From a virus: a stretch of 24,262 nt of DNA. Location: positions 1 to 24,262 of IMG/VR virus record IMGVR_UViG_3300042549_008695; one strand, written 5' to 3'. The number at the start of each line of letters is the position of its first letter. The first letter of the stretch is position 1. The notes beneath the pieces were generated by a model. The model worked only from the letters and a program-made list of their open reading frames with translations, did not search any database and was not told the DNA's origin. Of the stretch, positions 2,333 through 24,133 are shown piece by piece. A program made the translations under genes and the position numbers.

Positions 2333-3453
2333 TGCCTCAAATATATGCTAATGGTTTAATAAAAGAAAATCCTTTTTTTGAACTATCTAATCAAAGTTTT
2401 GAAAAACTGCTGAAGCTATATACTAATAAAAACACAAAATATTCTAAATACATAGTAGTAAAACCTGTTTATAAGAATCTCAATTTAGAAACAATTGATT
2501 TTGACCCGGTTGCTTTTTTCAGCGATGCATTAATAAAAAAGTTAAAATTAGGAAAAATATCTTTAATTTTTGATTGTTCCATAGAAGGTTCGCATATCGT
2601 ATTTCCTTACTTTAAAAGATTTAGTAAAGGATTTTCAAATAATAACATACCACTTCAACGTTTTTATTATTTAACAGGCGATGCTGTTGAAAAAGACATG
2701 CATCTTAAAAACAATGTGTATCACATTAATGCGTGTGATAGTATGTTGAGCTGTCCCAACCCACGTTTAGATACAAAAGCAACCTTATATTTTACGTGCC
2801 TCAGTCGCAAACCTAGATACTGGCGTTCTAGATTAATCTATGAAATGTATAATACTGCGTATAAAGATAAAATGCTAGCGAGTCATCCGAAAATTGAATC
2901 TAAAAATGATTTTATGAATCATGACGGATTTGATGTTGACGGTAATATGGTTGAGTTTTTTATTAAACATTCTCCTATGCAAGTTTCGCAGAATGCTCCA
3001 CTTTCTAGCACAATGCCGGATAAAGATATAATATCAACTTTACCGGAAGTCTACAGTCGCGCAGTATTTGACGTATCATTAGAAACATATCAAGAAAGAG
3101 CACACGAATTTATTACAGAAAAAACTTTCAAACCTATGCTTAATATGATGCCGGTAATAATTTGGGGTACACCCGGTATTAATACATCGGGGCTGACCCG
3201 ATTAGGATTTAAGACATATGAGGATTGGTTTGATTTAACCTTCGATATTGAACCTAATACTGAAAAAAGACTTAAGCTTTTACTTGATGAGATACATCGT
3301 GTATGTAATATGCTAGATAGCATCGATGATATATCTAGTTGGCAGCGAAAGAATATGGGCGTAATAGAGCACAATAAAAATATTATACGCAACTTGTTAC
3401 CTACAAATGTATCCGAATTTACTCAATTTTATAAAGATATAGAAGCAGGTTGA
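2332..3453 (+). CDS. Glycosyltransferase-like phage protein, 'EKTFKP' family
   Basis: This 373-residue protein shares its C-terminal half with the protein at 12201-13460. The key block is ITEKTFKPMLNMMPVIIWG (261-279), then a conserved LGFKTYEDWFD (291-301). An upstream block, LSRKPRYWRSRLIYEMY (157-173), corresponds to SLNRTVRQHRLQFARELY in the paralogue. The pattern 'E-K-x-x-K-P, hydrophobic run, P-x-I-x-x-G' resembles the nucleotide-sugar binding part of fucosyltransferase-like GT-B enzymes, which suggests a sugar transferase. That is inference. No signal peptide or membrane segment is seen. It is translationally coupled to the radical SAM gene by a TAATG overlap. It is visibly more AT-rich than that gene, so it may have a separate history. 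Confidence 0.6.
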   Translation: MPQIYANGLIKENPFFELSNQSFEKLLKLYTNKNTKYSKYIVVKPVYKNLNLETIDFDPVAFFSDALIKKLKLGKISLIFDCSIEGSHIVFPYFKRFSKGFSNNNIPLQRFYYLTGDAVEKDMHLKNNVYHINACDSMLSCPNPRLDTKATLYFTCLSRKPRYWRSRLIYEMYNTAYKDKMLASHPKIESKNDFMNHDGFDVDGNMVEFFIKHSPMQVSQNAPLSSTMPDKDIISTLPEVYSRAVFDVSLETYQERAHEFITEKTFKPMLNMMPVIIWGTPGINTSGLTRLGFKTYEDWFDLTFDIEPNTEKRLKLLLDEIHRVCNMLDSIDDISSWQRKNMGVIEHNKNIIRNLLPTNVSEFTQFYKDIEAG

Positions 3454-3478
3454 CAAGATTGCAATATATTGCTATACT
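3450..3478 (+). promoter_or_regulatory. Sigma70-type early promoter for the ligase operon
   Basis: TTGACA (3450-3455) and TATACT (3473-3478) are separated by exactly 17 bp, matching the bacterial housekeeping consensus in 11 of 12 positions. The -35 box overlaps the end of the upstream gene. Transcription would start near 3485, giving a leader of about 25 nt with AAGG before the ligase ATG at 3510. It is a strong host-type promoter, as expected for phage early genes. Confidence 0.88.
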
Positions 3479-3509
3479 GTTGTATCATTAGTATTTTAAG
3501 GCAACTAAA

Positions 3510-4808
3510 ATGACCCCATGGCAAATTATTAAAGATTTGGAAACACACAATCTGCGTACTAACAAAGAGCAGATCATTGATGCTAATAGAGATAATGCAG
3601 AATTTTTAGAAGGTTGTAGACTTGCACTAGACTCTATGATCACATTTGGTCTCAAGAAAATTCCAGAAAAGACTGATGAGGATGGGCCTGGCCTAAGCTG
3701 GGACGCATTTACTCTAGCACTAACAGGCTTTGTTAGTCGCGGTGTCACCGGTAATACAGCTCGCGACATGATCGCAACAATGATGAACTCTGCTACGCAA
3801 GAGCAGTGGAATCATTGGTATCGACGTATCCTTATTAAGGATCTACGCTGCGGCGTAAGTGAAAAGACCATTAACAAAGTTGTTAAGGGTGCTATTCCTG
3901 TATTTGAATGTCAGCTCAGTCATGACAGTGCTAACCATGAAAGTAAAGTATGCGGCAAGAAACTGATCGAAGTGAAGTTGGATGGTGTGCGAGTTTTAAC
4001 CGTAGTCTATCCAGATGGGCGAGTGGACCAGTTCAGTCGCAATGGCAAGGAGTTGCTCAACTTTGGTCACATCAAAGAGCAGTTCGCCAAAGTAGCGAAC
4101 AAGTTAAGCTCTCCGACTGTTTTCGACGGGGAGATTATGAGCAGCAGTTTCCAGGATCTAATGAAGCAGGTTCACCGCAAGGAAAATGTAACAGCCGGTG
4201 ATGCAGTACTACACTTGTTTGATATTATTCCGCTTGACCAGTTTCAAGAAGGCAAGTTTGCAGTTAAGCAACGTGAGCGCACAGCATGGCTCAAGCAGTG
4301 GTACGAACAACACATGAACCTGTTGCCCAACGTAACTGTACTTGACCATGCAGTAGTTGACCTTGATTCTGATGAAGGACAGAAGTTGTTTTCTATGTAC
4401 AATAAGAGTGCAGTAGAGAACGGTTACGAAGGTATTATGATCAAGGACTTGAATGCTCCATACGAGTGCAAGCGTAGTGCTGCCTGGCTCAAACTCAAAC
4501 CCTTCATTGAAGTTTCGTTGGAAGTAATCAATGTTGAAGAAGGCACTGGAAGAAATGTTGGACGACTGGGTGCATTTGTATGTGCCGGCGTCGACGACGG
4601 AAAACGTATTAAAGTTAATGTTGGGTCTGGCTTCAGTGATTCGAATAGAGATAGCTTTTGGGCTAGCCACGTTGAAAATGATAATATTGTAGGACAAATT
4701 GTTGAAGTGAGGGCAGATGCGGTAACGCAGAACCAAGATGGAACTTATAGTTTGCGCTTCCCTCGCTTCTTACGTTTCCGTGGCTTTGAGGCCGGAGAGA
4801 AACTATAA
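3510..4808 (+). CDS. ATP-dependent DNA ligase (T4 gp30-like)
   Basis: This 432-residue enzyme seals nicks in duplex DNA and would join Okazaki fragments during phage replication. Motif I is KLDGVR with K156 as the nucleotide-accepting lysine. Motif III is TVFDGE (203-208), motif IV is YEGIMIK (306-312), and motif V is WLKLKP (326-331). An N-terminal DNA-binding region of about 150 residues precedes the adenylation domain, and an OB-fold region of about 100 residues follows. The size is slightly below the T4 enzyme (487 residues). The start ATG follows AAGGCAACTAAA. It is the first gene of an operon behind a strong sigma70-type promoter, consistent with early expression. It overlaps the ferredoxin gene at TAATG. 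Confidence 0.95.
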
Positions 4809-5137
4809 TGACATACGTTGTAACAGAATCATGTATTAAGTGCAAGTATACTGATTGTGTGACGGTTTGCCCAGTAGATTGCTTTTATGAAGGTGAAAAT
4901 TTTCTAGTCATTAACCCCGACGAATGTATTGATTGTGCGCTGTGTGAGCCTGAGTGTCCTGTTAATGCGATTTATTCTGATAACGACTTGCCACAGGAAC
5001 AGCGTTACATGATTGACTTAAATGCTGAACTTAGCAAAGAGTGGCAAACTAGTAATATTACAGCCAAACGTGATCCGCTGCCGGATGCAGAGCACTGGGC
5101 TACTGTTCAAGATAAAAAAGATTTTCTAGTAAGGTAG
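4808..5137 (+). CDS. fdxA: 7Fe ferredoxin, FdxA type ([3Fe-4S][4Fe-4S])
   Basis: This 109-residue protein is a full-length match in layout to proteobacterial FdxA and Azotobacter ferredoxin I. C9, C17 and C50 fit the [3Fe-4S] ligands. C21, C40, C43 and C46 fit the [4Fe-4S] ligands. The two additional cysteines C12 and C25 are also where ferredoxin I has them. The C-terminal tail includes the family's [11 protein letters not shown]. It carries single electrons in the cytoplasm. Phage ferredoxins are usually the plant type; this bacterial type is unusual and was probably captured from a proteobacterial host. Its start overlaps the ligase stop (TAATG), and the deformylase follows after 12 nt. 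Possible partners are the radical SAM protein or host oxidoreductases. Confidence 0.95.
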
Positions 5138-5149
5138 TTAAATAAAGTT

Positions 5150-5746
5150 ATGAGTAAACAATACGACCCATATAGCAAATATGCATCTAGCACTGATGTC
5201 AGTTTAGGCGAGTCCTTTCTCGAAGATTGGCGCTGTGAATTAGTTGACCCTAGAGATCCTGCATTACATCGAAGTGCTACAACTGACCCGTTTAAAGGCG
5301 GTATTGACTGGACTGAACGCGAAAAAGAAATGCTTGAGCTAATGCATGCCAATTTAGGTGTAGGACTTAGTGCTACACAAGTTGGTAGTAGTTATAACAT
5401 GTTTGTTATGGCACATAGTTTCTTAGGTGACATAGGTATTTACAAACCCTCCATTATTGAAACTGAAGGTGAAGTACAAATTGAAGAAGGTTGCTTAACT
5501 TGGCCGTTGCTTTACTTAAAGATTAAGAGACCAGCTAAGATCAAGGTACAGTTCACCAAAACAGATGGTGAGACTGTGGTTGAAACATGGATGGATGGTA
5601 TTGATGCAAGATGTTTCCTTCACGAGTATGATCACTTGCAAGGAATTAACTTTATAGACATTGTTGGCGAATTTAAACTACAGATGGCTAAACAAAAACG
5701 CGACAAGCGTTTTAAAAGATTGGAACGTTCTGTTAAGAGAGGATAA
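5150..5746 (+). CDS. def: Peptide deformylase
   Basis: This 198-residue enzyme removes the formyl group from the first methionine of new proteins. All three family motifs are present: GVGLSATQ (70-77), EEGCLTWP (112-119) with metal ligand C115, and FLHEYDHLQG (156-165) with metal ligands H158 and H162 and catalytic E159. The usual EGCLS is EGCLT. About 45 residues precede the usual start of the domain, an acidic extension with no motif. Deformylases are recurrent in marine phages, where they are thought to speed maturation of host or phage proteins during infection. The start is coupled to the ferredoxin gene, and the stop overlaps the next start (TAATG). Confidence 0.95.
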   Translation: MSKQYDPYSKYASSTDVSLGESFLEDWRCELVDPRDPALHRSATTDPFKGGIDWTEREKEMLELMHANLGVGLSATQVGSSYNMFVMAHSFLGDIGIYKPSIIETEGEVQIEEGCLTWPLLYLKIKRPAKIKVQFTKTDGETVVETWMDGIDARCFLHEYDHLQGINFIDIVGEFKLQMAKQKRDKRFKRLERSVKRG

Positions 5747-6603
5747 TGGACTATCCATTCTATGTCAACAACTTTGATCGTGTTCAAGACCATGCAAGAC
5801 AATATCCTTTAGTAAGAAAGATATTTGAGCATCCTGTTGCGTTTTGGTACGGCCAAAGAAACGGCAAACCCGTAAAGCATCTAGAAAAGAGCTTGGCAAG
5901 ATTGTTCCGTAGAACATTGCCTGCTCTTCCTGTGTTTGTGCTTTACAATCTTCCTAACCGAGACATGGGACATTACAGCAAAGGTGGCGCTAGCAGTTCT
6001 GCTAGCTATTTAGAGTTTATTGAAAGTTTTGCATTAGGTGTAGGCAAACTTTCGCCTATTGTTATCTTTGAACCCGATGCGCTGCCACATAGTACAGAAA
6101 TGGCTACAGTTGAAGCACAGTGGCGCTATAAACTAATGCAACAAGCATTAACAATACTAACTGAGCGTACTAACGCACTAGTGTATGTTGACATAGGTCA
6201 TAGCAATTGGCTCGAACCTGAAGAAGCTGGTAAACTACTTAACAGTGTATGTGCGCCGGGTGTGCGCGGCTTTAGTGTCAATGTCAGCAACTTTAGAACC
6301 ACAGAAGAGTCTGTAAGCTGGGCAGAGCGTGTAGGCGAATATACACAGTACAATCACTACGTAGTTGATACTAGTCGCAACGGCAACGGTCCATATGGCA
6401 ATGAATGGTGCAACCCACCTGGTCGTGCAATTGGTCAAAAACCTACAACAGATACTGGATACCCTCTGTGCGATGCTTATCTATGGATTAAGATTCCTGG
6501 CGAGAGTGACGGAAGAAAAAATAACGGACCTAGAGCAGGCCGCTTTTGGCCCGTTTATGCCGAGCAATTAGTTATTAATACCGCGAATATTTTAAATGAT
6601 TGA
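5746..6603 (+). CDS. Glycoside hydrolase family 6 enzyme (cellulase-like)
   Basis: This 285-residue protein is a compact GH6 catalytic domain, a family of inverting beta-1,4-glucanases (endoglucanases and cellobiohydrolases). The ordered motifs are VLYNLPNRD (65-73), IFEPDALP (107-114), VYVDIGHSNWL (146-156), VDTSRNGNGP (207-216) and IKIPGESDG (248-256). D73, D111, D149 and D208 fall where the family's key aspartates lie. The D73-D111 spacing of 38 equals that of Thermobifida Cel6A (D79-D117). There is no signal peptide, carbohydrate-binding module or linker, so export would depend on lysis or on the virion. It sits inside a tightly packed early operon, with TAATG and 8-nt overlaps on either side. 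The actual substrate is unknown; a host or biofilm glucan is possible. Confidence 0.92.
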   Translation: MDYPFYVNNFDRVQDHARQYPLVRKIFEHPVAFWYGQRNGKPVKHLEKSLARLFRRTLPALPVFVLYNLPNRDMGHYSKGGASSSASYLEFIESFALGVGKLSPIVIFEPDALPHSTEMATVEAQWRYKLMQQALTILTERTNALVYVDIGHSNWLEPEEAGKLLNSVCAPGVRGFSVNVSNFRTTEESVSWAERVGEYTQYNHYVVDTSRNGNGPYGNEWCNPPGRAIGQKPTTDTGYPLCDAYLWIKIPGESDGRKNNGPRAGRFWPVYAEQLVINTANILND

Positions 6604-7069
6604 ATATTATAAAAATGCTCTTAGTGAGCAAGAAATTATCTATTTAGAAAAGAATGTACATGAATTCTATAATCATGATACAGAAATTTTTCATAGCTTA
6701 CGTGCAGATCTAATTAAAATACCACTGTTTTTCAAATTTTTAATTTACGAAAAACTACAAGCATTCTCCGAAAAATATAAAGTAGAAGTTGGAGAAATTG
6801 AGTTTGCTAGATATAGACGATATTTACCCGGTGACTATATTAAACCACACAACGATAATTATAAAAATGGTAATAGAAAAGTAACTATTATTTTCGGAAT
6901 AAACGATCAATATAGCGGCGGCGAACTCTGTATTAACAACACAGAATTTAAAATTCTAAGAGGTGATATGTTGCTATTTTCTAGCGAAATTATGCACGAA
7001 GTTAAGACAGTTACAGACGGTGTAAGAGATATTATAGTAGTGTTAACTCACACTTTAGAAAATATTTAA
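6596..7069 (+). CDS. 2-oxoglutarate/Fe(II)-dependent oxygenase
   Basis: This 157-residue protein has the double-stranded beta-helix signature of the prolyl 4-hydroxylase-like superfamily. H85 and D87 form the HxD iron motif in IKPHNDNYK, H134 in EIMHEVK is the distal iron ligand, and R144 in GVRDII is placed to bind 2-oxoglutarate. SGGEL (107-111) and GDMLLF (123-128) are family-typical. The 65-residue N-terminus is short and without other domains. Such small oxygenases are abundant in marine T4-like phages; their targets (protein side chains or nucleobases) are mostly unknown. It overlaps the GH6 gene by 8 nt and is the last gene of the early operon. Its stop codon overlaps the stop of the opposing gene. 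Confidence 0.88.
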   Translation: MIEYYKNALSEQEIIYLEKNVHEFYNHDTEIFHSLRADLIKIPLFFKFLIYEKLQAFSEKYKVEVGEIEFARYRRYLPGDYIKPHNDNYKNGNRKVTIIFGINDQYSGGELCINNTEFKILRGDMLLFSSEIMHEVKTVTDGVRDIIVVLTHTLENI

Positions 7070-7410
7070 GAAACACCGCTTGGATCAGTGTTGTCTTGCA
7101 CTTGATCACTAACAGCAACTTCATCACCTGGATTGTATAGTTCTGCTTCTAAGTAATGCTTTGCGCTACTAATGTAATCACCTGCACGAACAATCTTAGC
7201 AGTCCACCATTGAGGAAGATCACCGTTTGGAACTTCCTTTAGCATCTTGTGTAGCTCAACGGCATACTTGCCAATCTTATAAAGTTCTTGACGAATCATA
7301 TCTGGTTCGTCGTCAACATGACCGACCACAGTCTTTACAACTTCATCGCCTGTTTCTGGTTCTTCTTTTAGAATTCCAGCTAGCTTTTGTAATCTATATA
7401 AGTCGTTCAT
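7066..7410 (-). CDS. Late protein with N-terminal LAGI module, unknown function
   Basis: This 114-residue acidic protein is not recognised as a known enzyme. It begins MNDLYRLQKLAGILKEE, which closely resembles two segments of the upstream-encoded protein (ILRKLAGLPLEE and ELRKLAGLR at its end). This looks like a portable module. The LKE-E step at its end loosely fits the L-x-E cleavage rule of T4-type prohead proteases, so it may be a capsid-targeting peptide. That is inference. The middle is predicted helical, around YKIGKYAVELHKMLKE. It is coupled to the preceding gene by a TAATG overlap. Its stop overlaps that of the convergent oxygenase gene, leaving no room for a terminator. Confidence 0.7.
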   Translation of the reverse strand: MNDLYRLQKLAGILKEEPETGDEVVKTVVGHVDDEPDMIRQELYKIGKYAVELHKMLKEVPNGDLPQWWTAKIVRAGDYISSAKHYLEAELYNPGDEVAVSDQVQDNTDPSGVS

Positions 7411-14279: not shown

Positions 14280-15311
14280 TTAAGTTGCTACAAACAAGCT
14301 AGTGTGACCCTTTGACTTGGCCCATTTAACAGCAGCTTTCTTAGCATCACTGTAGCTCATGCCATGTAACTCAACATAGTCCTCGCCTTCAACATCTTTG
14401 CTAAAGTTAATGCCCCCGCGATGTGCAACAAAGAACCAACTACCTTGGCCACCTGGCTTTTTACCGTGCGTGAATTCATAGTCTGTGTTACTAACTTCAG
14501 CTTCATCTAGACTATTCAGTTTTTGACTTACGGCTTGCATCAACGGTGAAAGTAGTTGCTTTACTTCCTGCGGATCCATGACATCTGTTAGTGGCCACTC
14601 TACTTCACGCTCTAGTGTTTGCAGCACTTGTCTTAGTACATCTTCAGGTTCGCCCCATTGGCTGCTTTCTGTTGCACCAACTAGCTTGCCTTGATATGGG
14701 TGAGGACTCTCGCCGCCCATGCTAGGCTTAAATTTCTTAGGCTTGTCCTTAGTAGTTACTACATAGTTAGGACGCTTATCGCCCTCCGCAACACCTTGCT
14801 CTTCGTTTGTTTTATCGCGTTTTCTTTTTAGCAGTGCAATCTGAGAATCAATATTTTTGCGAGCAATTGGACTTGATACTGAATTCTTTTTACGAATTAA
14901 ATCAGCAATCTGTGCGCTAACATCATCAGCCTCTTCTTTAACACTACGATCGTCTTTAACAACTGTAGCATTAGATCCGCCGCGCATATTAGAAGCTCGC
15001 GCACGCTTCTCAGCCGATTCTTTATCTTGATGGTAACTGATTGATTGGCCATTACGCATCACGTAATAGCCAGCTGGCTTTTTATTAGGAAGGTCAGCTT
15101 CTTCGTCCATCTTCTTGTAATCATCGTAGCTGATGTACAAGTCAGTGTCTGGATCGTAATAAGAACCTTCTTGTGGATCGTAGTACACTACCTTACCGTT
15201 GCGTAAGCGGAAAGGCCCTTCTAACCCGCTGCGTGGTTGATATTTTTCTTTATCAATAGGAGAAATAGGAGGAAGTACTTTATAGCCTTCTACGATATTT
15301 GTGATCTTCAT
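14280..15311 (-). CDS. Modular late phage protein, probably head-associated
   Basis: This 343-residue, lysine- and acid-rich protein is assembled from short segments. The N-terminus MKITNIVEGYKVL has an I-V-E-G step (6-9), like the short targeting peptides cut from T4 internal head proteins. A tyrosine-rich region (38-65) and a KPAGYYVMRNGQSISYHQ segment (78-95) follow. EEQGVAEGDK (170-179) holds another V-A-E-G step, and SLDEAE (267-272) an L-D-E-A step. A C-terminal module of about 65 residues contains WFFVAHRGGINFSKDVEGE and ends KSKGHTSLFVAT. These features suggest a protein packaged into the prohead and processed by a gp21-like protease; that is inference. It overlaps the preceding gene at TAATG. 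Confidence 0.72.
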   Translation of the reverse strand: MKITNIVEGYKVLPPISPIDKEKYQPRSGLEGPFRLRNGKVVYYDPQEGSYYDPDTDLYISYDDYKKMDEEADLPNKKPAGYYVMRNGQSISYHQDKESAEKRARASNMRGGSNATVVKDDRSVKEEADDVSAQIADLIRKKNSVSSPIARKNIDSQIALLKRKRDKTNEEQGVAEGDKRPNYVVTTKDKPKKFKPSMGGESPHPYQGKLVGATESSQWGEPEDVLRQVLQTLEREVEWPLTDVMDPQEVKQLLSPLMQAVSQKLNSLDEAEVSNTDYEFTHGKKPGGQGSWFFVAHRGGINFSKDVEGEDYVELHGMSYSDAKKAAVKWAKSKGHTSLFVAT

Positions 15312-15844
15312 TAGTTAATTGTCCCCGAATACCAAATAATTACTTTTGCAGAGCCCGCGCTAGCACCGCCCTGTGTTACAGTGATGCTAATTGTGTCACT
15401 GGTAGTATACTCGTACTTGGTGTCAACAGTTGATTGTGCTGATACATCAAACCCGCTAAACAGTCTGCTAGCATTTCCGGTATCGCCTACAGTGATTTCT
15501 GTGTTAGCATCGGCACCTGTCCAGTTGCCTGCGGTTTTTTCAACGTTTACACCATGAATAAACGTATTAGCACTAACATTACCTACAACAACGTTGCCTG
15601 AATTGTAATTAACAGTTGTTGCAACGTAGCTAATAGCGTTACCGCTAATAGCATTAAGTTGATTAAGTGTAACACCGTGTGTTGCATCACTGCCTTCAGC
15701 AATAGCGATCGCTTCTAAATCACCTATTTTGTCTTTGAAAGCAATTACGCTGGTGTTACTAGCATCAATAACAGGGCCTTGCTTGCCTAGTTCAACGTTG
15801 GCAGCTACACCAGCTAAGTTATATTGTTTGACCGAGTCTATCAC
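15311..15844 (-). CDS. Beta-rich virion protein, paralogue of the 15857 gene
   Basis: This 177-residue protein aligns along its whole length with the upstream neighbour. Both start with YNLAG then ANVELGKQG, share the GDT(G/S)N(A/G)SR segment and YEYT, and end with a TVTQG(G/S)AS(A/S)GSA block. The composition (Thr, Val, Ala, Asn, Gly) and the alternating hydrophobic pattern suggest beta structure, as in phage tail fibre or capsid decoration proteins. The start is GTG at 15844 behind AGGGGAACAGC. It lies 12 nt after its paralogue and is coupled to the next gene by TAATG. A tandem duplication is the simplest origin. The exact virion location is unknown. Confidence 0.75.
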   Translation of the reverse strand: MIDSVKQYNLAGVAANVELGKQGPVIDASNTSVIAFKDKIGDLEAIAIAEGSDATHGVTLNQLNAISGNAISYVATTVNYNSGNVVVGNVSANTFIHGVNVEKTAGNWTGADANTEITVGDTGNASRLFSGFDVSAQSTVDTKYEYTTSDTISITVTQGGASAGSAKVIIWYSGTIN

Positions 15845-15856
15845 GCTGTTCCCCTA

Positions 15857-16477
15857 TTAAAGTGTAATGTTGCCAAGATCGTTGTTGCTGTTCTGTGCTT
15901 GGTTGATTGAACCGTAATCTGTAACAGCTACGGCATCGCTAGCTAGTACAACACTAATTGTGGCACTACCGCTACTTGCACTACCTTGTGTTACTGTATA
16001 TTTTAATGTACCTTCACTGGTATACTCATATTGGTATTGGCTATGATACTGGCCTACTTTTAGTACGTCAACGTCTTGTGCGCGGATAAATCTACTACCG
16101 TTGCTAGTATCACCTACTTCAACAAATGTTGTGGTGTTATCAGCAGTACCGCCCCATGTACCCGGAATATCTACTGTGACACTGAGGATTCTGCTACCAG
16201 CAGCAACAGTTGCTAAGTTAGCACTGCCTGAATCATGTTGGATGTCGATGGTAACGTGTTGTACTAGATCCCCGCTTGTTGCATCTAATTGTGCTTTGGT
16301 AACAGCTTCTGTGCCTACAGTAGCATTAGCAATAGCAATCTTCTGTAGCGCACCAGCACTAGTATAAAATCCAATTGCACTTGCATTACCTGCAATATAT
16401 GAACCTTGTTTACCTAGTTCAACATTTGCATTTAAGCCTGCTAAGTTGTATTTTTTTATTTTATTGACAATCGCCAT
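15857..16477 (-). CDS. Beta-rich virion protein, first gene of late operon
   Basis: This 206-residue protein is a paralogue of the following gene, longer by about 29 residues, mainly a C-terminal tail with an acidic-Asn-rich end (QAQNSNNDLGNITL). Shared features are the N-terminal YNLAGLNANVELGKQG (10-25) and the later VTQGSASSGSA. No enzyme motif, signal peptide or membrane segment is present. The ATG at 16477 follows CCGGAGATTGAT, a good ribosome site, 18 nt after a perfect late promoter. As the first gene of the operon it is probably made in quantity, which fits a structural role such as fibre or decoration. The identity of the structure is not established. Confidence 0.75.
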   Translation of the reverse strand: MAIVNKIKKYNLAGLNANVELGKQGSYIAGNASAIGFYTSAGALQKIAIANATVGTEAVTKAQLDATSGDLVQHVTIDIQHDSGSANLATVAAGSRILSVTVDIPGTWGGTADNTTTFVEVGDTSNGSRFIRAQDVDVLKVGQYHSQYQYEYTSEGTLKYTVTQGSASSGSATISVVLASDAVAVTDYGSINQAQNSNNDLGNITL

Positions 16478-16495: not shown

Positions 16496-16515
16496 TATTT
16501 ATAAACATATTTATC
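16496..16515 (-). promoter_or_regulatory. Tandem T4-type late promoter boxes
   Basis: On the minus strand there are two boxes: a perfect TATAAATA (16496-16503), 18 nt before the start at 16477, and GATAAATA (16508-16515) 12 bp further upstream. They drive the virion-protein operon leftward. They lie back to back with the rightward sigma70-type promoter at 16525. Confidence 0.82.
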
Positions 16516-18338: not shown

Positions 18339-18346
18339 TATAAATA
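18339..18346 (+). promoter_or_regulatory. T4-type late promoter TATAAATA for the sugar operon
   Basis: This is an exact TATAAATA directly after the stop of the preceding gene. It ends 34 nt before the ATG of the RfbH-like gene, with AGGAAAAG as ribosome site between. It places the whole downstream sugar operon under late control. Confidence 0.83.
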
Positions 18347-18380
18347 CCATAACACGAAAAACACAGACTACAGGAAAAGT

Positions 18381-19703
18381 ATGAAACAAGAAATCCTCGC
18401 ACAAATTCGTGCATTTATTGAACAGCGTGATACAGAAAAGACTTGGGAACCAGGCAAAGATTTTGTAAACTACGCAGGGCCTTTTTTTGACGCGGAAGAA
18501 ATTGTTGCCGCAGCTGAAACGTTACTTGACGGTTGGCTAGTAATGGGCAATAAGAGTATGTTGTTCGAAAGAAGGTTTCCAAAACTGTTTGGTAAAGACT
18601 TTGGAATTCTAACTAACAGCGGTAGTAGTAGTAATCTTTTGATGATGGCATCGCTTACCAGTAAGCGAGGTCATAATTTTCCAAAAGGCACAAAGGTGTT
18701 GATGCCTATTGCAGGATTTCCGACAACACTAAATCCTACATTGCAAGTGGGTTTCACTCCTGTTTTTGTTGATATTGAGCTTGACACATTGAATATCGAT
18801 GTAGATCACTGTGAACGTGTGCTTGCTAACGATCCCGATATTAAGGTTATTACCTTTGCTCACGTACTAGGTAATCCACCTAATATGGATCAGTTAATGG
18901 AACTGGTTGAGAAGTATAATCTAGTACTATTAGAAGATTGCTGTGATGCACTAGGTAGTACATATAAGGATAAACATCTTGGTAGTTTTGGTGAGATGGC
19001 AAGCTGTAGTTTCTATCCTGCACACCACATGACAATGGGTGAGGGGGGTTTCGTTGCCAGCAACACTAAAGATCAAGAAGTTATTCTACGCAGCTTCCGC
19101 GAATGGGGTCGAGGTTGTTATTGTGTCGGACCAGAAGCAAACAAGCTCAAGTGCGGAACGTGTAAGTCACGTTTCTCAAACTGGATTCCTACCATGCCCG
19201 ATGAAATCTTTGACCACAAGTATGTGTATGATGAAATTGGTTATAATCTAAAGCCCATTGAACTACAAAGTGCTATGGGATTGAAACAGCTAGAAAAGCT
19301 AGATGAGATTCATGCTAAACGTAGACAGAATTATAATCTGTTGTTTAAGGTTTACGAAAAGTATGAAGAATTTTTCCATCTACCACGAGCAAGAGAACAC
19401 AGCAATCCGAGTTGGTTTGCCTTCCCACTAACAATTAGAAAGTCTGCTCCTTTCAGCAGGACACAGTTAGTTGATCATTTAGAAGATAACTTGATTCAAA
19501 CACGACCATATTTTGCAGGTAACATTATGCTACAGCCTGCGTATAGTCACTTAATGGATCCAATGGACGCTAAGAACAATTTCCCAAATGCAACATTTTC
19601 ATTGACTAACACCTTCTTCCATGGAACAAGCCCTGTAATCACAGAAGAACAAATTGCTTACATTGGCGAGAAGGTTGATGAGTTTATGGGGTCATTTAAG
19701 TGA
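18381..19703 (+). CDS. rfbH: RfbH-type PLP/[2Fe-2S] sugar 3-dehydratase (DegT/DnrJ/EryC1 fold)
   Basis: This 440-residue protein is of the sugar-aminotransferase fold, but the PLP-binding lysine position is a histidine (H215 in FYPAHHMTMGEGG). That marks the dehydratase subfamily of RfbH/AscC (E1), which removes the C3 hydroxyl of CDP-4-keto-6-deoxyglucose. C188-X57-C246-X-C248 matches the E1 [2Fe-2S] ligand spacing, with the fourth cysteine at C258 (X9, versus X7 in E1) or C261. NSGSSSNL (79-86) and LLEDCCDALGS (183-193) are typical cofactor regions. It makes a 3,6-dideoxy sugar intermediate in the cytoplasm, and needs an electron-transfer reductase that is not visible in the window. It is the first gene of the late sugar operon, with a GTGA overlap to the next. 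Confidence 0.9.
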   Translation: MKQEILAQIRAFIEQRDTEKTWEPGKDFVNYAGPFFDAEEIVAAAETLLDGWLVMGNKSMLFERRFPKLFGKDFGILTNSGSSSNLLMMASLTSKRGHNFPKGTKVLMPIAGFPTTLNPTLQVGFTPVFVDIELDTLNIDVDHCERVLANDPDIKVITFAHVLGNPPNMDQLMELVEKYNLVLLEDCCDALGSTYKDKHLGSFGEMASCSFYPAHHMTMGEGGFVASNTKDQEVILRSFREWGRGCYCVGPEANKLKCGTCKSRFSNWIPTMPDEIFDHKYVYDEIGYNLKPIELQSAMGLKQLEKLDEIHAKRRQNYNLLFKVYEKYEEFFHLPRAREHSNPSWFAFPLTIRKSAPFSRTQLVDHLEDNLIQTRPYFAGNIMLQPAYSHLMDPMDAKNNFPNATFSLTNTFFHGTSPVITEEQIAYIGEKVDEFMGSFK

Positions 19704-20308
19704 ACCAATTAGAACAACGAATCATTGATATTAGCTATAATGAAAAGATAGGACATCTTAGTTCTACTCTTAATGCTGTTAATATTATTGACGAAATTTA
19801 TGCAACAAAACAACCTGACGAACCTTTTATTCTAAGCTCGGGTCATGCGGCTCTTGCAATGTATGTAGTTCAAGAAAAGTATGAAGGTCGTGATGCAGTA
19901 GAACTTTTTCACAAACACGGAGTACACCCACATCGTTGCTTAGAAGATGGTATATATTGTTCAACCGGCAGTCTTGGTATGGGACTTACTGTGGCAACAG
20001 GCTACGCTCTAGCTAATAGAGATCGTAAGGTATATTGTTTGATTAGTGACGGTGAGTGTGGCGAAGGATCTATTTGGGAAGCACTACGTTTTATATACGA
20101 AGCAAAGTTAGATAACTTAGAAGTATACGTTAATGTAAACGGAATGATTGCTTACGACATGATTGATAGAGATTATATCAACAATAGGTTACGGGCGTTC
20201 CTGCCACGTATCAACATTCGTAACACAGAGCCACCAAAGTGGCCTTTTGCAGAAGGTGTACTAACACATTATTATGTTTTAAAACCAGAGGATTTGGACA
20301 AGCTATGA
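19700..20308 (+). CDS. Transketolase-like, N-terminal (thiamine pyrophosphate) half
   Basis: This 202-residue protein is the PP domain of a split transketolase. GHLSS (18-22) and SSGHA (46-50) carry the conserved histidines, TGSLGMGL (89-96) is the cofactor loop, and SDGECGEGS (116-124) with a downstream asparagine near 145-147 is the thiamine-diphosphate metal motif. It works with the next gene product as an alpha/beta pair. A full transketolase has about 660 residues, so the third, C-terminal domain is absent. In this operon the pair may transfer a two-carbon unit to a sugar rather than run the pentose phosphate pathway; that is inference. The start is GTG at 19700, overlapping the previous stop. 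Confidence 0.9.
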   Translation: MNQLEQRIIDISYNEKIGHLSSTLNAVNIIDEIYATKQPDEPFILSSGHAALAMYVVQEKYEGRDAVELFHKHGVHPHRCLEDGIYCSTGSLGMGLTVATGYALANRDRKVYCLISDGECGEGSIWEALRFIYEAKLDNLEVYVNVNGMIAYDMIDRDYINNRLRAFLPRINIRNTEPPKWPFAEGVLTHYYVLKPEDLDKL

Positions 20309-20784
20309 GAAATTACTTTGGACAATTAATGGCAGAAACGTTAGCTAACGATCAAAATGTTTATCTTCTCACAGGCGATTTAGGCTTTGGTGTTTTAAAT
20401 AAAAGCAGAGAAGTTTCTCCTGATAGAGTATTCAACGTTGGTGCTGCTGAACAGTTAATGTTGGGAACCGCGGTGGGTCTTACACATAATGGCAAAATTC
20501 CCGTTTGCTATAGTATTACTCCGTTTGTGATTTTTAGACCATATGAATGGTTGAGAAACTATCTTGATCACGAAGGGGCGCCGGTAAAACTTGTAGGCAG
20601 TGGCCGAGATAAAGATTACGGACATTTAGGATTTAGCCACTGGGCTATAGATGATGAAGCCGCATTAAAGGCATTTCCTAACATTAAAATTTACAAGCCT
20701 GACAGCGAAGAAGAATTAGCGAGCATTTGGCAAGAGTTTATCTACAGTAATGAGCCCTGCTATCTAAACATTAAAAGGAATTAG
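20305..20784 (+). CDS. Transketolase-like, pyrimidine-binding half
   Basis: This is a 159-residue protein from the ATG at 20305 (ATGA overlap with the preceding stop). It is the Pyr domain of the split transketolase: FNVGAAEQLMLGTAVGL (43-59) includes the conserved glutamate E49 that activates the thiamine ring, and LVGSGRDKDYGHLGFSH supplies active-site histidines. It pairs with the product of the upstream gene, with the active site at their interface. The usual C-terminal nucleotide-binding-like domain is missing, as in other split forms used in secondary sugar metabolism. The fused upstream extension of the frame, back to 20239, overlaps the preceding gene and is not credible. Confidence 0.9.
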   Translation: MRNYFGQLMAETLANDQNVYLLTGDLGFGVLNKSREVSPDRVFNVGAAEQLMLGTAVGLTHNGKIPVCYSITPFVIFRPYEWLRNYLDHEGAPVKLVGSGRDKDYGHLGFSHWAIDDEAALKAFPNIKIYKPDSEEELASIWQEFIYSNEPCYLNIKRN

Positions 20785-20786
20785 TT

Positions 20787-21416
20787 GTGGATAGACTCAT
20801 TGACAAATTAGAAAAGCGAGGAGACTGGTGGTGGCCCATTGGAGACCAAGGTTGCTGGAACTATATGCATCAGCATAGTGATGTTGTTGACCATCTCTGT
20901 GAATACGTAGCAGAACGTAAAGTTGTTGTGCAAGCAGGTGGCAACGCTGGATTTTACATTCGTAAATATGCAGAGCAGTTTGAAAGAGTTTACACATTTG
21001 AGCCAGAACCATTGAACTTTTTAGCATTGTCGATGAATTGTGATTATCCTAATGTTGTGAAATTCAATGCTGCTGTAGGCGACGCACACAGATTTATAGC
21101 ATTAAATCATCATGCACACGATGTTGGTGCAACTCATGTTCAAGGCATGGGGACTATACCAACATTTAAAATTGATGACCTAGAACTTGATCGTTGTGAC
21201 TTAATACAACTAGACACTGAAGGTTATGAATATTTTGGTCTTCTAGGAGCAAAAGAAACAATTGACAAGTTTAAACCAGTTATCTCTATAGAATGGTTTG
21301 GGCCTTGGGCGGAACGATATGGTGTTACGTTCAGCATGATTGAAGAATTCTTAGCCCAATGGAACTACGAACATGTAGCAACACACGCTACAGATTTAGT
21401 TTATGTGTCAAAATGA
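20787..21416 (+). CDS. FkbM-family methyltransferase
   Basis: This 209-residue SAM-dependent methyltransferase probably O-methylates a sugar. VVVQAGGNAGFY (46-57) is the SAM-binding loop, TFEPEP (70-75) holds the ribose-binding acidic residue, and DLIQLDTEGYE (138-148) is the characteristic FkbM motif, followed by the family's GA-x-x-T-I segment. The length matches the family. No membrane segment is present, so it acts in the cytoplasm. The start is GTG at 20787 with AAAAGGA upstream. It overlaps the next gene by 4 nt (ATGA). Its place between transketolase and epimerase genes suggests that it modifies the same sugar, or a glycan carrying it. Confidence 0.9.
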   Translation: MDRLIDKLEKRGDWWWPIGDQGCWNYMHQHSDVVDHLCEYVAERKVVVQAGGNAGFYIRKYAEQFERVYTFEPEPLNFLALSMNCDYPNVVKFNAAVGDAHRFIALNHHAHDVGATHVQGMGTIPTFKIDDLELDRCDLIQLDTEGYEYFGLLGAKETIDKFKPVISIEWFGPWAERYGVTFSMIEEFLAQWNYEHVATHATDLVYVSK

Positions 21417-22357
21417 ATAATATATTAATTACAGGCGCAACAGGATTTATAGGTCGTTATCTTGTTGAGCAATTTTGTGAAAATAATAATGTTATCTGTT
21501 TGGTTCGACCAGGAACAAAAAATCTAAAAAGAATTTCTGAGTTCTCTGATAAGATTAAAATAGTAGAACACAATATTAGAGATCCATATAATTTTGATAC
21601 CTTTAAAGACATAGATATTATTCTTCATGCTGGTGCAAATCCTAGTGCAGCTGATAGCATTAGCGCACCTGTCGAATCTGTGCTAGATAATGTAATTGGA
21701 ACGTTAAATCTATTAGAACTAGCTAGACAAATTAATCTTAAAAAGTTTGTTTATTATAGTTCTGGTGAAGTGTTTGGACCGATTCCAATTGGTAATGACA
21801 GCGGAGAGAATGATGCATATCGTTCTAACAGTCCATATGCAGCATCAAAAGCTTCGGGCGAAGAGCTTTGTGTGAGTTACTCTCATACTTACAAACTGCC
21901 AGTAAGTATTATACACATTAACAATACGTTTGGGCCCATGTGTCAACCAAACAGACTGCCCACCATTATTATTAAAAAATTGCTTAATAATGAGACATTG
22001 GACATTCATGTAGGCAAGGAAAATCAAATAGGTGGCCGCCGGTGGTTCTATGCAGGGGACGTTGCTAGTCACACAGACTTTGTAATTAACAAACAACGGG
22101 ACTTGTGCGAAAAATGGAACAGCGCCGGAAACAAGTTTATTAACAATTTTGAGTTCGCCAATAATATAGCGGACATAATGGGTAAAAAACTAAATTATAA
22201 CTTTATACCAGTTGACAGACCCGGGCATGATTTATGTTATTCAGTGGATCCGCAAAAGTTTTATGCAAAAGGCTGGACTGAACCAGTTTCTTATCAACAA
22301 AGACTTGAACAAACTGTTAATTGGTATTTGAACAATCAGGAATGGCTCTATGTATAA
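21413..22357 (+). CDS. NAD-dependent epimerase/dehydratase (extended SDR)
   Basis: This is a 314-residue protein from the ATG at 21413; an upstream extension of the frame overlaps the methyltransferase gene. TGATGFIG (7-14) is the NAD(P) loop, YYSSGEVFGP (114-123) is the catalytic serine region, and YAASK (142-146) is the Tyr-xxx-Lys pair. The position normally Asp-Glu in 4,6-dehydratases is G-E here, so it is more likely an epimerase or 4-ketoreductase than a dehydratase. It would act on a nucleotide-linked sugar, possibly reducing the keto intermediate made by the RfbH-like enzyme, as abequose or paratose synthases do; that is inference. It overlaps the next gene by 8 nt. Confidence 0.88.
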   Translation: MNNILITGATGFIGRYLVEQFCENNNVICLVRPGTKNLKRISEFSDKIKIVEHNIRDPYNFDTFKDIDIILHAGANPSAADSISAPVESVLDNVIGTLNLLELARQINLKKFVYYSSGEVFGPIPIGNDSGENDAYRSNSPYAASKASGEELCVSYSHTYKLPVSIIHINNTFGPMCQPNRLPTIIIKKLLNNETLDIHVGKENQIGGRRWFYAGDVASHTDFVINKQRDLCEKWNSAGNKFINNFEFANNIADIMGKKLNYNFIPVDRPGHDLCYSVDPQKFYAKGWTEPVSYQQRLEQTVNWYLNNQEWLYV

Positions 22358-23300
22358 AACTGTGTATGTTACGGGATGTTTAGGATTTATTGGCTATCAC
22401 GTTGCTAAATCCTGTTTAGAAAAGGGTTGGTATGTCTGCGGAGTTGATAAGGGCACATATGCTGCCAATTGGAATCTTCTTGATGATTTACTAACATACA
22501 AGAATTTTAAATTTGAAAATAAAGACATTAATGAACTAACAATGATTTATGACTGTGATTATTTTATTAATACTGCCGCAGAAACTCACGTAGACAATAG
22601 CATTGTTAGTAGTATTGAATTTGTAGACAGTAATATTAGTGGTGTTCATAATATTTTAGAACTTATTAGAACAAAAATTAGTGGTAGAAAAAAGACTCCT
22701 GTTCTATTACATTTCAGTACTGACGAAGTGTATGGTGATATAGATCAAGGCTTCCATAAAGAAACAGACCTGTTAAAGCCGAGCAACCCTTACAGCGCAA
22801 CAAAAGCTGCTGCTGACATGTTGGTCATTGCTTGGGCCCGAACATATAACTTACCTTATGTAATTGTTAGACCAACAAACAACTATGGTATTGGTCAGTA
22901 TGCTGAAAAGTTTATACCACACGCCATCAAGTATCTAACGTTGGGTAAAAAAGTTTTGTTACACAACAAAGGAACACCGCGTAGAACGTGGTTACATGCA
23001 AGTGATACTGCCGAAGCTGTGATAACAATTATGGAAAAAGGTATTGTTAATGAGATTTATAATATCTCAGGCACATTTGAAGAACAAAATATTGTAGTTG
23101 CAAAAAAGATTATTAATCTTTTAGGGCTAACAGGAAACGAAGAAACCTATCTAGATACAAATTATGAGCGGCCTGGTCAAGATGTTAGATATGCTATCGA
23201 CGATACTAAGATTAAATCTTTAGGTTGGGAACCAAAAGCTAACTTTGACAACGAGCTTGTAAAAATTGTAAAATATTATAAAGAAAACTTTATTTGGTGA
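22350..23300 (+). CDS. Nucleotide-sugar 4,6-dehydratase-like (RmlB-type extended SDR)
   Basis: This 316-residue protein resembles dTDP-glucose 4,6-dehydratase. TGCLGFIG (8-15) binds NAD; AAETHVDNSI (76-85) is a signature segment; STDEVYG (123-129) supplies the Thr-Asp-Glu triad needed for the dehydration step; and Y148xxxK152 is catalytic. RPTNNYGIGQ (174-183) is also typical. It would make a 4-keto-6-deoxy sugar, the substrate class of the RfbH-like enzyme at the head of the operon. The nucleotide (dTDP, CDP or GDP) cannot be told by eye. The protein is slightly shorter than RmlB (about 355). It follows the previous gene with an 8-nt overlap. Confidence 0.9.
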   Translation: MYKTVYVTGCLGFIGYHVAKSCLEKGWYVCGVDKGTYAANWNLLDDLLTYKNFKFENKDINELTMIYDCDYFINTAAETHVDNSIVSSIEFVDSNISGVHNILELIRTKISGRKKTPVLLHFSTDEVYGDIDQGFHKETDLLKPSNPYSATKAAADMLVIAWARTYNLPYVIVRPTNNYGIGQYAEKFIPHAIKYLTLGKKVLLHNKGTPRRTWLHASDTAEAVITIMEKGIVNEIYNISGTFEEQNIVVAKKIINLLGLTGNEETYLDTNYERPGQDVRYAIDDTKIKSLGWEPKANFDNELVKIVKYYKENFIW

Positions 23301-23304
23301 AATT

Positions 23305-24054
23305 ATGAAAAATTATCTTATTGGCGCTGTGCGCCCAATTATTAAGAACTGGGGTTATTGGAAGGGCCCGGGAGATAATCCAAAGGCTGAACGTGACCTT
23401 ATGGACTATGAAAACATGTATTCTATTAGTAGAAGCAGTGCAAAAACTTATCTACAAGGCGAGTGGGAGGAAATCAAGCTCACTGCACCTGTACTTGATT
23501 CTAGAGCATATCAAATAGCACATTGGTACATGATTAAGGAACTATGGCACAAAGAGCCCTGCAACATTTTATGCATGGGTGCAGACACTATGTTTCTCAA
23601 ACCAACAGAAGTGTTCGGCAAGTATAATGATATGATGATGTTTAATTACACTGATCCAAAAACACACGAAGAAGCACAGCATTATTTTAACGATGATATT
23701 AGATACTATCCAGCAGATATGGATCCAAAGGTTTGGGACTTAGGCGAAAGACTTATGGATAAGTGGTTCACTCATAAAGAAAATGACTGGAGTTGGGGAC
23801 AGTTGATTCATAATTATCAGTTATGGAGTCAAGGTTTAGATGTTTCGGAAGTATTAGATCCAAAGATGGCGTTTCAAATCTTTAATTTGAATATACCTTT
23901 TGCAGAAGAATGGAACAATTGTAAGTTTGCAGACGCTAACATAATTCATTTACATAGCAGCAGAGATACATCATCTCGAGTATCTGCAATGAAGGAAATT
24001 GCAGAAACGTGTAATGTTCCTGTTTATGTAAAGGAAGAAATGATAGTATTGTAA
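23305..24054 (+). CDS. Possible GT-A-type glycosyltransferase
   Basis: This 249-residue protein is not firmly identified. ILCMGADTMFLKPTEVFGKY (88-107) resembles the segment around the DxD metal site of GT-A glycosyltransferases, where a hydrophobic strand is followed by 'D-x-D-x-x-F-x-x-P', though only one aspartate (D94) is in place here. HSWG-like and IIHLHSS segments near the C-terminus could be further donor or metal contacts. There is no membrane segment or signal. It is the last gene of the late sugar operon, 4 nt after the dehydratase gene, and a transferase is the expected remaining step there. A strong terminator follows 45 nt after the stop. Confidence 0.6.
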   Translation: MKNYLIGAVRPIIKNWGYWKGPGDNPKAERDLMDYENMYSISRSSAKTYLQGEWEEIKLTAPVLDSRAYQIAHWYMIKELWHKEPCNILCMGADTMFLKPTEVFGKYNDMMMFNYTDPKTHEEAQHYFNDDIRYYPADMDPKVWDLGERLMDKWFTHKENDWSWGQLIHNYQLWSQGLDVSEVLDPKMAFQIFNLNIPFAEEWNNCKFADANIIHLHSSRDTSSRVSAMKEIAETCNVPVYVKEEMIVL

Positions 24055-24099
24055 AATACTACAGCAATCGGCAGACTACTTCGTTAGAAGTTTTGCATA

Positions 24100-24133
24100 A
24101 AAAGTATTTGGTAGGCGCCTACCAATTACTTTT
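24100..24133 (+). terminator. Long inverted repeat, likely bidirectional terminator
   Basis: A perfect 18-bp palindrome, TTGGTAGGCGCCTACCAA (24108-24125), is flanked by AAAAGTA on the left and TACTTTT on the right. These also pair, after one T-T mismatch, giving arms of 17 nt. As RNA it forms a stem with a GCGC loop and a short U-run. It closes the sugar operon. Confidence 0.8.

Follow-up and report, generated by a model that had tools for sequence, protein, structure and literature searches.

The stretch of DNA analysed here, hereafter the window, is the 24,262-base IMG/VR virus record IMGVR_UViG_3300042549_008695, and the system under study is an operon of seven plus-strand open reading frames (ORFs) at 18381-24054, in which every junction overlaps or leaves at most 5 nt. 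Profile searches of the ORF translations gave the gene order RfbH, TkN, TkP, FkbM, SDR1, SDR2 and GTx (Table 1), with a T4-type late-promoter motif opening the operon and a conserved hairpin closing it. A complete sugar operon of seven packed genes, including a 3-dehydratase, a two-subunit transketolase, a methyltransferase and a short-chain dehydrogenase/reductase (SDR), had been described here by the first-pass annotation. This observation was confirmed, both in the packing and in the family matches obtained (RfbH, Transketolase_N plus Transket_pyr, Methyltransf_21 and extended SDR).

Table 1. Features of the operon and its candidate acceptor genes in the window
Feature	Coordinates	Strand	Evidence
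T4-type late promoter motif, TATAAATA	18339..18346	+	conserved element 5' of RfbH in 13/13 window-type loci examined
RfbH-type nucleoside diphosphate (NDP)-4-keto-6-deoxyhexose 3-dehydratase, pyridoxamine phosphate (PMP)/[2Fe-2S] type	18381..19703	+	NF011936, 3bcx match, motif
TkN, N-terminal (thiamine diphosphate (ThDP) phosphate-binding) chain of split transketolase-like enzyme, 202 aa	19700..20308	+	PF00456 E 3.7e-7; PF13292 E 5e-7
TkP, pyrimidine-binding chain, 159 aa	20305..20784	+	PF02779 (Transket_pyr) E 7.5e-21
FkbM-family methyltransferase	20787..21416	+	PF05050 (Methyltransf_21) E 2e-13; TIGR01444 48.4 bits (cut-off 37.7)
SDR1, extended SDR with SS[GA]E...YxxxK	21413..22357	+	PF01370 E 2.4e-39
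SDR2, RmlB-like NDP-glucose 4,6-dehydratase	22350..23300	+	TIGR01181, STDE motif
GTx, predicted GT-A-fold glycosyltransferase, 249 aa	23305..24054	+	AlphaFold2 (AF2) model and structure comparison
Conserved hairpin TTGGTAGGCGCCTACCAA, likely terminator	24108..24125	+	GGTAGGCGCCTACC kept in 8/8 loci folded
Divergent capsid-cement-like protein, candidate glycan acceptor, outside the operon	15857..16477	-	AF2 and Foldseek
Paralogue of the cement-like protein	15311..15844	-	same cluster; aligned with the 15857..16477 protein

RfbH scored 449.6 bits against the equivalog NF011936, above its cut-off of 423, and its best match in the PDB was the E1 dehydratase 3bcx (E 2.5e-101). In the alignment with 3bcx, the position of the pyridoxal phosphate lysine is taken by a histidine, a motif shared by all 167 distinct phage RfbH sequences, and four cysteine columns are common to both proteins; the four-cysteine pattern, presumably the ligands of the [2Fe-2S] site, was found in 163 of the 167. 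A ferredoxin gene is also present in the window (4808-5137). SDR2 reached 290 bits with the RmlB model TIGR01181, under the equivalog cut-off of 365, and only 66.6 bits with TIGR02622, the model for cytidine diphosphate (CDP)-glucose 4,6-dehydratase; its relatives carry STDE in 156 and YxxxK in 157 of 157 distinct sequences. Among the relatives of SDR1, SS[GAS]E was present in 41/42 distinct sequences and the TDE dehydratase motif was absent from 41/42, and we propose that SDR1 may be a reductase or epimerase working after branching. The best PDB matches of TkN and TkP were 6yak (N-terminal chain of a split transketolase, E 2e-13) and 6yaj (E 5.2e-16), respectively. The ThDP/Mg motifs SDGE and N.NG were found in 33/33 distinct TkN, and (A/I)EQ, which holds the catalytic glutamate retained in the window, in 33/35 TkP. 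Two further patterns, one around H76 of TkN (3/33) and G.[FSM][ST]H in TkP (0/35), were badly designed and uninformative; H76 is invariant in an alignment of 8 sequences.

The operon had also been said to run from a perfect late promoter to a terminator, and both claims stood in part. Within the window, TATAAATA occurs 3 times against 2.65 copies expected by chance, all three outside the listed genes; since this raw count is at chance level, the motif alone proves little, and its position and conservation were used instead. The element (T/G)(A/G)TAAATA lies about 28-37 nt 5' of the RfbH ATG in 13 of 13 window-type loci, with diverging flanks. Of the 17 TATAAATA copies present across 6 window-type loci, 10 fell 8-80 nt upstream of an ORF; in the same loci, letter permutations of the motif (n = 55) averaged 1.9 such copies out of 17.7, with two permutations, among them the overlapping word ATAAATAT, also reaching 10. 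Sigma-70-like sites in the window were at chance level (23 found, 24.0 expected). It is the promoter motif that points to late expression of the operon. As for the hairpin, GGTAGGCGCCTACC follows the last gene, GTx, in all 8 loci folded; because its T-tail is weak, a function as transcription terminator is only likely.

To examine the gene neighbourhood, viral contigs were searched with RfbH only, and the best 80 of the 123 loci obtained, chosen without regard to their neighbours, were analysed together with the window (81 loci). The relatives sharing this first enzyme were freshwater and marine phages. The slot after RfbH was found to hold one of four types of ThDP enzyme: a split transketolase (Tk), a split pair resembling the E1 component of pyruvate dehydrogenase (PDH; type E1), a split acetolactate-synthase-like enzyme with TPP_enzyme_N+M and TPP_enzyme_C on two ORFs (AHAS2), or a single-chain acetolactate-synthase-like enzyme (YerE1). 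Both the AHAS2 N-chain (best PDB match, E 1.8e-51) and YerE1 (E 1.5e-73) matched 8rph, described in PMC12188165 as the YerE-like enzyme JanthE. A ThDP enzyme was encoded on the stretch in 61 of the 81 loci: 50 adjacent to RfbH (no more than 60 nt away; Tk 19, E1 16, AHAS2 8, YerE1 7), 6 within 1.25 kb and 5 elsewhere. Dereplication at 95% left 52 clusters (Tk 12, AHAS2 7, E1 11, YerE1 10, mixed AHAS2/none 1, none 11). Scans in the reverse direction, starting from the ThDP enzymes, found RfbH directly preceding TkN in 38 of 46 loci, about 0.8 kb away in 2 and not at all in 6 (3 of them cut at the contig start), and adjacent in 25 of 28 YerE1 loci, the remaining 3 being cut by the contig. All of the best 80 of 88 AHAS2 loci had an RfbH-family match (2 of them weak, 38-42%), which was adjacent in 24 and about one gene away in 33. 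The second ThDP chain was adjacent in 44/46 Tk, 80/80 E1 and 80/80 AHAS2 loci. Two loci, L145 and L146, were labelled unknown, their single-chain gene being cut by the contig end, and the E1b Glu pattern (38/68) and the AHAS-type GDG pattern (70/80; 31/42) were badly designed and uninformative. According to the 2025 review PMC12247030, ThDP enzymes with ketone acceptors, which add carbon branches to keto sugars, fall into three superfamilies, namely YerE-like decarboxylases, alpha-keto-acid dehydrogenase-2 (alpha-KADH2) and split transketolases. The phage slot covers all three, and this is our main argument for considering TkN/TkP a putative sugar-branching enzyme.

Some loci departed from this layout. 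In three contigs, E1 and AHAS2 stand in tandem after RfbH (L187/L271, L188/L272 and L190/L273), and loci L013-L024 and L026, all except L015, combine RfbH and GTx with a sulfotransferase-like gene and no ThDP enzyme, mostly beside cement-like proteins. Among bacterial genomes (best 80 of 239 TkN relatives), RfbH accompanied TkN/TkP only in L306, a 9 kb contig of a Maricaulis metagenome-assembled genome that could be viral. TkN relatives from Patescibacteria, Omnitrophota and others (L308-L325; 36-47%) lacked RfbH, and most of them had TkP and an SDR in the vicinity.

The distribution of the four types pointed to frequent replacement. On a FastTree phylogeny of 145 dereplicated RfbH sequences, in which just 42 of 142 inner branches were well supported, the slot label changed at least 52 times (48 excluding 'none'). 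Two pairs of contigs illustrate the event: L055 (AHAS2) and L097 (Tk) are colinear as far as the end of RfbH, at 90.1% and 88.0% DNA identity, then differ in the ThDP pair, and homology is back just before FkbM (79.8% over 4.66 kb); the same exchange pattern was seen between L111 (Tk) and L241 (aminotransferase plus AHAS2). We then compared 120 pairs of loci with different slot types and RfbH DNA at least 85% identical, and 71 same-type pairs as controls. In 120/120 different-type pairs homology stopped between -7 and +22 nt relative to the end of RfbH, resuming downstream in 103; among the controls it stopped there in 1/71. It should be considered that unrelated neighbours must break homology nearby; what is informative is the continuity up to the RfbH stop codon and the resumption downstream.

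The co-occurrence of donor-supply genes with the exchanged enzymes was counted in those clusters that had 4.5 kb or more of downstream sequence. Class I aminotransferase genes were found in 18 of 29 AHAS2 clusters, always directly 3' of RfbH, and in none of the Tk (0/20), E1 (0/45) or YerE1 (0/25) clusters. Genes for an acylating acetaldehyde dehydrogenase and a 4-hydroxy-2-oxovalerate aldolase occurred in L049 and L061 (YerE1) and in L282 (AHAS2), the L049 pair scoring above the profile cut-offs; such a pair would make 4-hydroxy-2-oxopentanoate, which, according to PMC12247030, ErwE prefers as donor when erwiniose is made. HpcH-like (6) and NeuB-like (2) genes were confined to YerE1 clusters; the former had no NCBIfam match but scored 39.2 with Pfam PF03328 (cut-off 25), and the latter scored under its cut-offs. 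Altogether, 2-oxo-acid supply genes were present in 29 of 54 AHAS-type clusters (AHAS2 plus YerE1) and in none of the 65 clusters with Tk or E1; leaving HpcH and NeuB out would lower the first count to about 21 of 54 (18 aminotransferase and 3 aldolase clusters). Over 12 phylogenetically independent pairs, 5.7 agreed on average and 0 opposed (median p 0.031). FkbM and SDR1 were found together in 15/20 Tk, 12/29 AHAS2, 0/45 E1 and 1/25 YerE1 clusters. Taken separately, each gave a Fisher p of at most 3e-11; on 10 phylogenetically independent pairs, 1.9 went the same way and 0.1 the opposite way, which is not significant. The association of FkbM and SDR1 with Tk and AHAS2 is thus suggestive, and this co-occurrence is the basis of the tentative idea that a hydroxyacetyl unit is what Tk and AHAS2 alike would deliver, with the aminotransferase making hydroxypyruvate. 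In one locus, L040, a minus-strand AroB-related sugar phosphate cyclase gene (4658-5701; 397, cut-off 400) has an HpcH-like aldolase on one side and a YerE-like enzyme on the other.

The last protein of the operon, GTx, which the first-pass annotation had called a possible glycosyltransferase, gave no family match in profile searches yet a confident GT-A fold was predicted for it (AF2 pLDDT 90.1, pTM 0.88). Foldseek matched the model to glycogenin (E 7.9e-7), and VIA matched it to the UGGT catalytic domain (Z 15.3) and to the PBCV-1 capsid glycosyltransferase 2p6w (Z 14.1; 191 residues, 3.6 A). It is therefore a predicted soluble GT-A glycosyltransferase, with homologues in 60/81 RfbH loci; a fold shared with known enzymes does not by itself point to the acceptor. 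For phage glycosyltransferases in general, PMC12619734 lists DNA, host serotype and the virion as known targets. Two cement-like paralogues lie next to the operon, in a protein cluster present in 17/81 loci. One of them, 15857..16477, has its own TATAAATA at 16496-16503; the ordered domain of its model (pLDDT 69 overall, 84-93 across most of residues 71-180) resembles capsid cement proteins, Foldseek matching it to the capsids of cyanophage Pam1 (7eel, E 2.0e-5) and KHP30 (7dn2, E 3.2e-5) and to the KHP40 cement protein (7dou, E 2e-4). Because these cement-like proteins adjoin the operon, virion decoration is our leading guess. Only 2 of the 1,520 proteins predicted in the 81 loci have 6 or more transmembrane-like stretches, none of them in the window, and in this survey no flippase, polymerase or membrane transferase turned up in the vicinity of the operon; the near absence of multi-spanning membrane proteins argues against a phage-encoded export route. 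An NTP_transferase match appeared in just 1 of 19 long phage contigs, and weakly, so the host would have to supply the activated glucose. Of 19 long relative contigs, 11 encode the T4-type capsid protein gp23, which was not found in the 3 window-type ones, fragments of 38-49 kb.

Gene content and order, motifs, swaps and donor-gene co-occurrence can be read directly from these genomes, and their best explanation, which we hold to be quite probable, is that the operon makes a ThDP-branched 3,6-dideoxyhexose; from them we infer the reactions, nucleotide, donor, acceptor and timing. The phage would divert a host nucleotide-activated glucose, most likely deoxythymidine diphosphate (dTDP)-glucose, which SDR2 would convert to a 4-keto-6-deoxy sugar and from which RfbH would strip the 3-hydroxyl. 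TkN/TkP with ThDP would then attach a two-carbon unit, hydroxyacetyl or acetyl, at the C4 ketone and so create a tertiary alcohol; afterwards SDR1 may reduce or epimerise the branched product, FkbM would O-methylate the sugar, and GTx would transfer it in the cytoplasm, most likely to virion proteins late in infection. RfbH would thus act as a constant socket and the ThDP enzyme as an exchangeable plug and, because transketolase-, acetolactate-synthase- and PDH-E1-type enzymes share the slot, related phages would build different branches onto one core sugar. The first-pass annotation had proposed a branched, methylated 3,6-dideoxy sugar following the logic of yersiniose, an interpretation that is partly supported: the replacement of TkN/TkP by AHAS- and PDH-E1-like enzymes in relatives speaks strongly for this chemistry, but the carboligase is not YerE and SDR2 is RmlB-like. 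It is the slot types, the clean exchanges at the RfbH stop codon and the donor-gene co-occurrence that make the ThDP-branched product a well-supported inference. More tentatively, and as a possibility short of probable, aquatic T4-like phages may vary their glycans in a modular way, precise recombination at the RfbH stop swapping carboligases of the three superfamilies with ketone acceptors and the matching donor genes and so yielding different branched virion sugars in closely related phages.

Several observations weigh against these proposals. TkP ends with Transket_pyr at 159 aa and so has no C-terminal (third) transketolase domain, and EDG, a motif which we take to be part of the transketolase donor site and which 6yaj has, was found in 0/35 distinct TkP; because both are missing, TkN/TkP is to be seen as a relative of transketolase and not as a standard one. 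No partner E3 (RfbI-type) reductase is encoded in the operon, and NAD_binding_1 was found in 0/19 long phage contigs; a host reductase or the ferredoxin of the window, which might feed electrons to RfbH, could substitute for it. Twenty of the 81 loci had no ThDP enzyme; one of them, L025, ends at a contig edge, and three others, L072-L074, have an RfbH at least 95% identical to that of L070, which carries a partial AHAS2 gene upstream. In the reverse scan of E1 (best 80 of 101 loci), RfbH was adjacent in only 45 of 80; of the rest, 29 had RfbH-family matches elsewhere, 8 of which (24-32% identity) are probably other aminotransferase-fold genes, and 6 had none. Among cultured phages, a search with RfbH at E 1e-40 gave 8 records (38-44% identity), and the arrangement was not found in the three examined: no ThDP gene was among the annotated RfbH neighbours of RN05-S and S-H68, and AG-345-D19 is unannotated. 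Finally, the co-occurrence tests are weak once corrected for relatedness, and the evidence on the acceptor is circumstantial.

That the sugar decorates virion proteins is plausible, being compatible with a soluble glycosyltransferase, the lack of export genes and the cement-like neighbours. RfbH, RmlB and FkbM are typical O-antigen genes, so that the sugar might instead enter host lipopolysaccharide (LPS) or capsule, blocking superinfection or altering the receptor. YerE-like enzymes are known from LPS (PMC12247030), and LPS-type clusters of unknown function are reported from cyanophages (PMC3037559); we nonetheless judge this modification of the host surface rather unlikely, given that no flippase, polymerase or membrane transferase lies near the operon and that the operon opens with a late-promoter motif. 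The late motif, which does not speak for early expression, also makes it quite improbable that the sugar is placed on a modified base of phage DNA, as do the operon's lack of a thymidylate-synthase-like or base-modifying gene and the cement-like capsid proteins that neighbour the window group. For this DNA hypermodification it can be said that T4-type phages are known for glycosylated DNA, that a soluble GT-A enzyme would fit, and that in some relatives, L047 among them, QueD-like and QueE-like genes, all under NCBIfam cut-offs, are found close to the cassette. In L047 they flank the sugar cassette on either side (6841-7392 and 14822-15676), a hint of possible 7-deazaguanine DNA modification there.

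The fold and name of TkN/TkP, and surveys that class viral tktA/tktB as metabolic genes (PMC13390420), could suggest a pentose-phosphate transketolase raising the host's nucleotide supply. Such an auxiliary role in central metabolism appears very improbable in view of the RfbH gene directly 5' of TkN in 38/46 loci, the other ThDP families occupying the same slot, the lack of the C-terminal domain and the loss of EDG from 35/35 distinct TkP. Packaging filler, that is, unused or decaying genes, is one account that has been considered for the LPS clusters of cyanophages (PMC3037559). It seems scarcely credible here, with frames and catalytic motifs intact across distinct sequences, precise exchanges that preserve the operon, and a conserved promoter element.

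If virion sugars are varied in this modular fashion, carboligase swapping would be a viral counterpart of O-antigen serotype switching. Phages also supply many compact two-chain candidates for split transketolases beside a known substrate-making enzyme and, since these adjoin RfbH and natural swaps isolate the variable step, both the branching reaction itself and what each type does are directly testable. The long-standing question, raised in PMC3037559, of whether the LPS genes of phages have a function or are mere filler gains a concrete case, and some of the viral genes that environmental surveys list as tktA/tktB or acetolactate synthase may serve sugar branching and not central metabolism. 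The window further encodes an S-adenosylmethionine decarboxylase (588-965), a radical-SAM-like protein (1004-2332) and a domain of glycosyl hydrolase family 6 (GH6), a cellulase family (5746-6603; PF01341, 180.7 bits). In L045, an FG-GAP-repeat protein with a lipobox-like N-terminus, judged by eye, is encoded near the cassette (2586-4970).

Phage RfbH-ThDP cassettes were not found described in the open-access papers searched and, as far as that search shows, no earlier description of the exchangeable carboligase slot exists. Cyanophages S-SM2, P-TIM68, S-H68 and RN05-S have sugar clusters with relatives of E1a (37-38% identity) or of RfbH (42.5%), and no RfbH plus ThDP pairing was seen in the regions viewed. 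Searches of phages with TkN, AHAS and E1 gave weak or probably bacterial matches, plus the fused E1-like proteins of P-TIM68 (L386, 8049-9194) and S-SM2 (L387, 7983-9191), each encoded after an alcohol dehydrogenase, in a sugar cluster where no RfbH is annotated. The closest solved structure to both TkN and TkP is the Carboxydothermus hydrogenoformans split transketolase (6yaj/6yak), whose chains are 309 and 341 aa long against 202 and 159 aa in the phage, where TkP is without the C-terminal part and the EDG motif of that enzyme. AviB1/AviB2 and KbDH-alpha/beta, of the alpha-keto-acid dehydrogenase-2 group, are two-chain E1-type enzymes described as adding acetyl to keto sugars (PMC12247030, PMC4753412) and resemble the E1 type of the slot; they come from antibiotic producers, whereas the E1 chains of the phages are short, with about 206 and 178 aa. 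Addition of hydroxyacetyl to a keto sugar is likewise the role proposed for the split-gene transketolases of miharamycin and amipurimycin, and PMC12247030, whose 13 candidates all come from Streptomycetes, presents sugar branching by split transketolases as not yet proven; the window type belongs to phages, stands beside RfbH and is swapped with other ThDP types, the function being proposed in both. YerE-like enzymes, those of yersiniose and erwiniose, serve, according to the same source, mainly LPS. With yersiniose A of Yersinia pseudotuberculosis (YerE; also ErwE and JanthE) the window shares the same logic of a 3-dehydratase followed by ThDP-dependent addition at the 4-ketone of a 3,6-dideoxy sugar, and, of the slot types, AHAS2 and YerE1 come close to the YerE/ErwE/JanthE class. 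The window differs in having a split transketolase-like enzyme instead of YerE, YerE-like forms occurring only in relatives (where AHAS2 is split into two chains), in its RmlB-like 4,6-dehydratase of the dTDP and not the CDP-glucose type, and in that no partner reductase was found. With no YerE, an RmlB-like dehydratase and no E3-type reductase, the operon is thus yersiniose-like in its working without being a member of that system.

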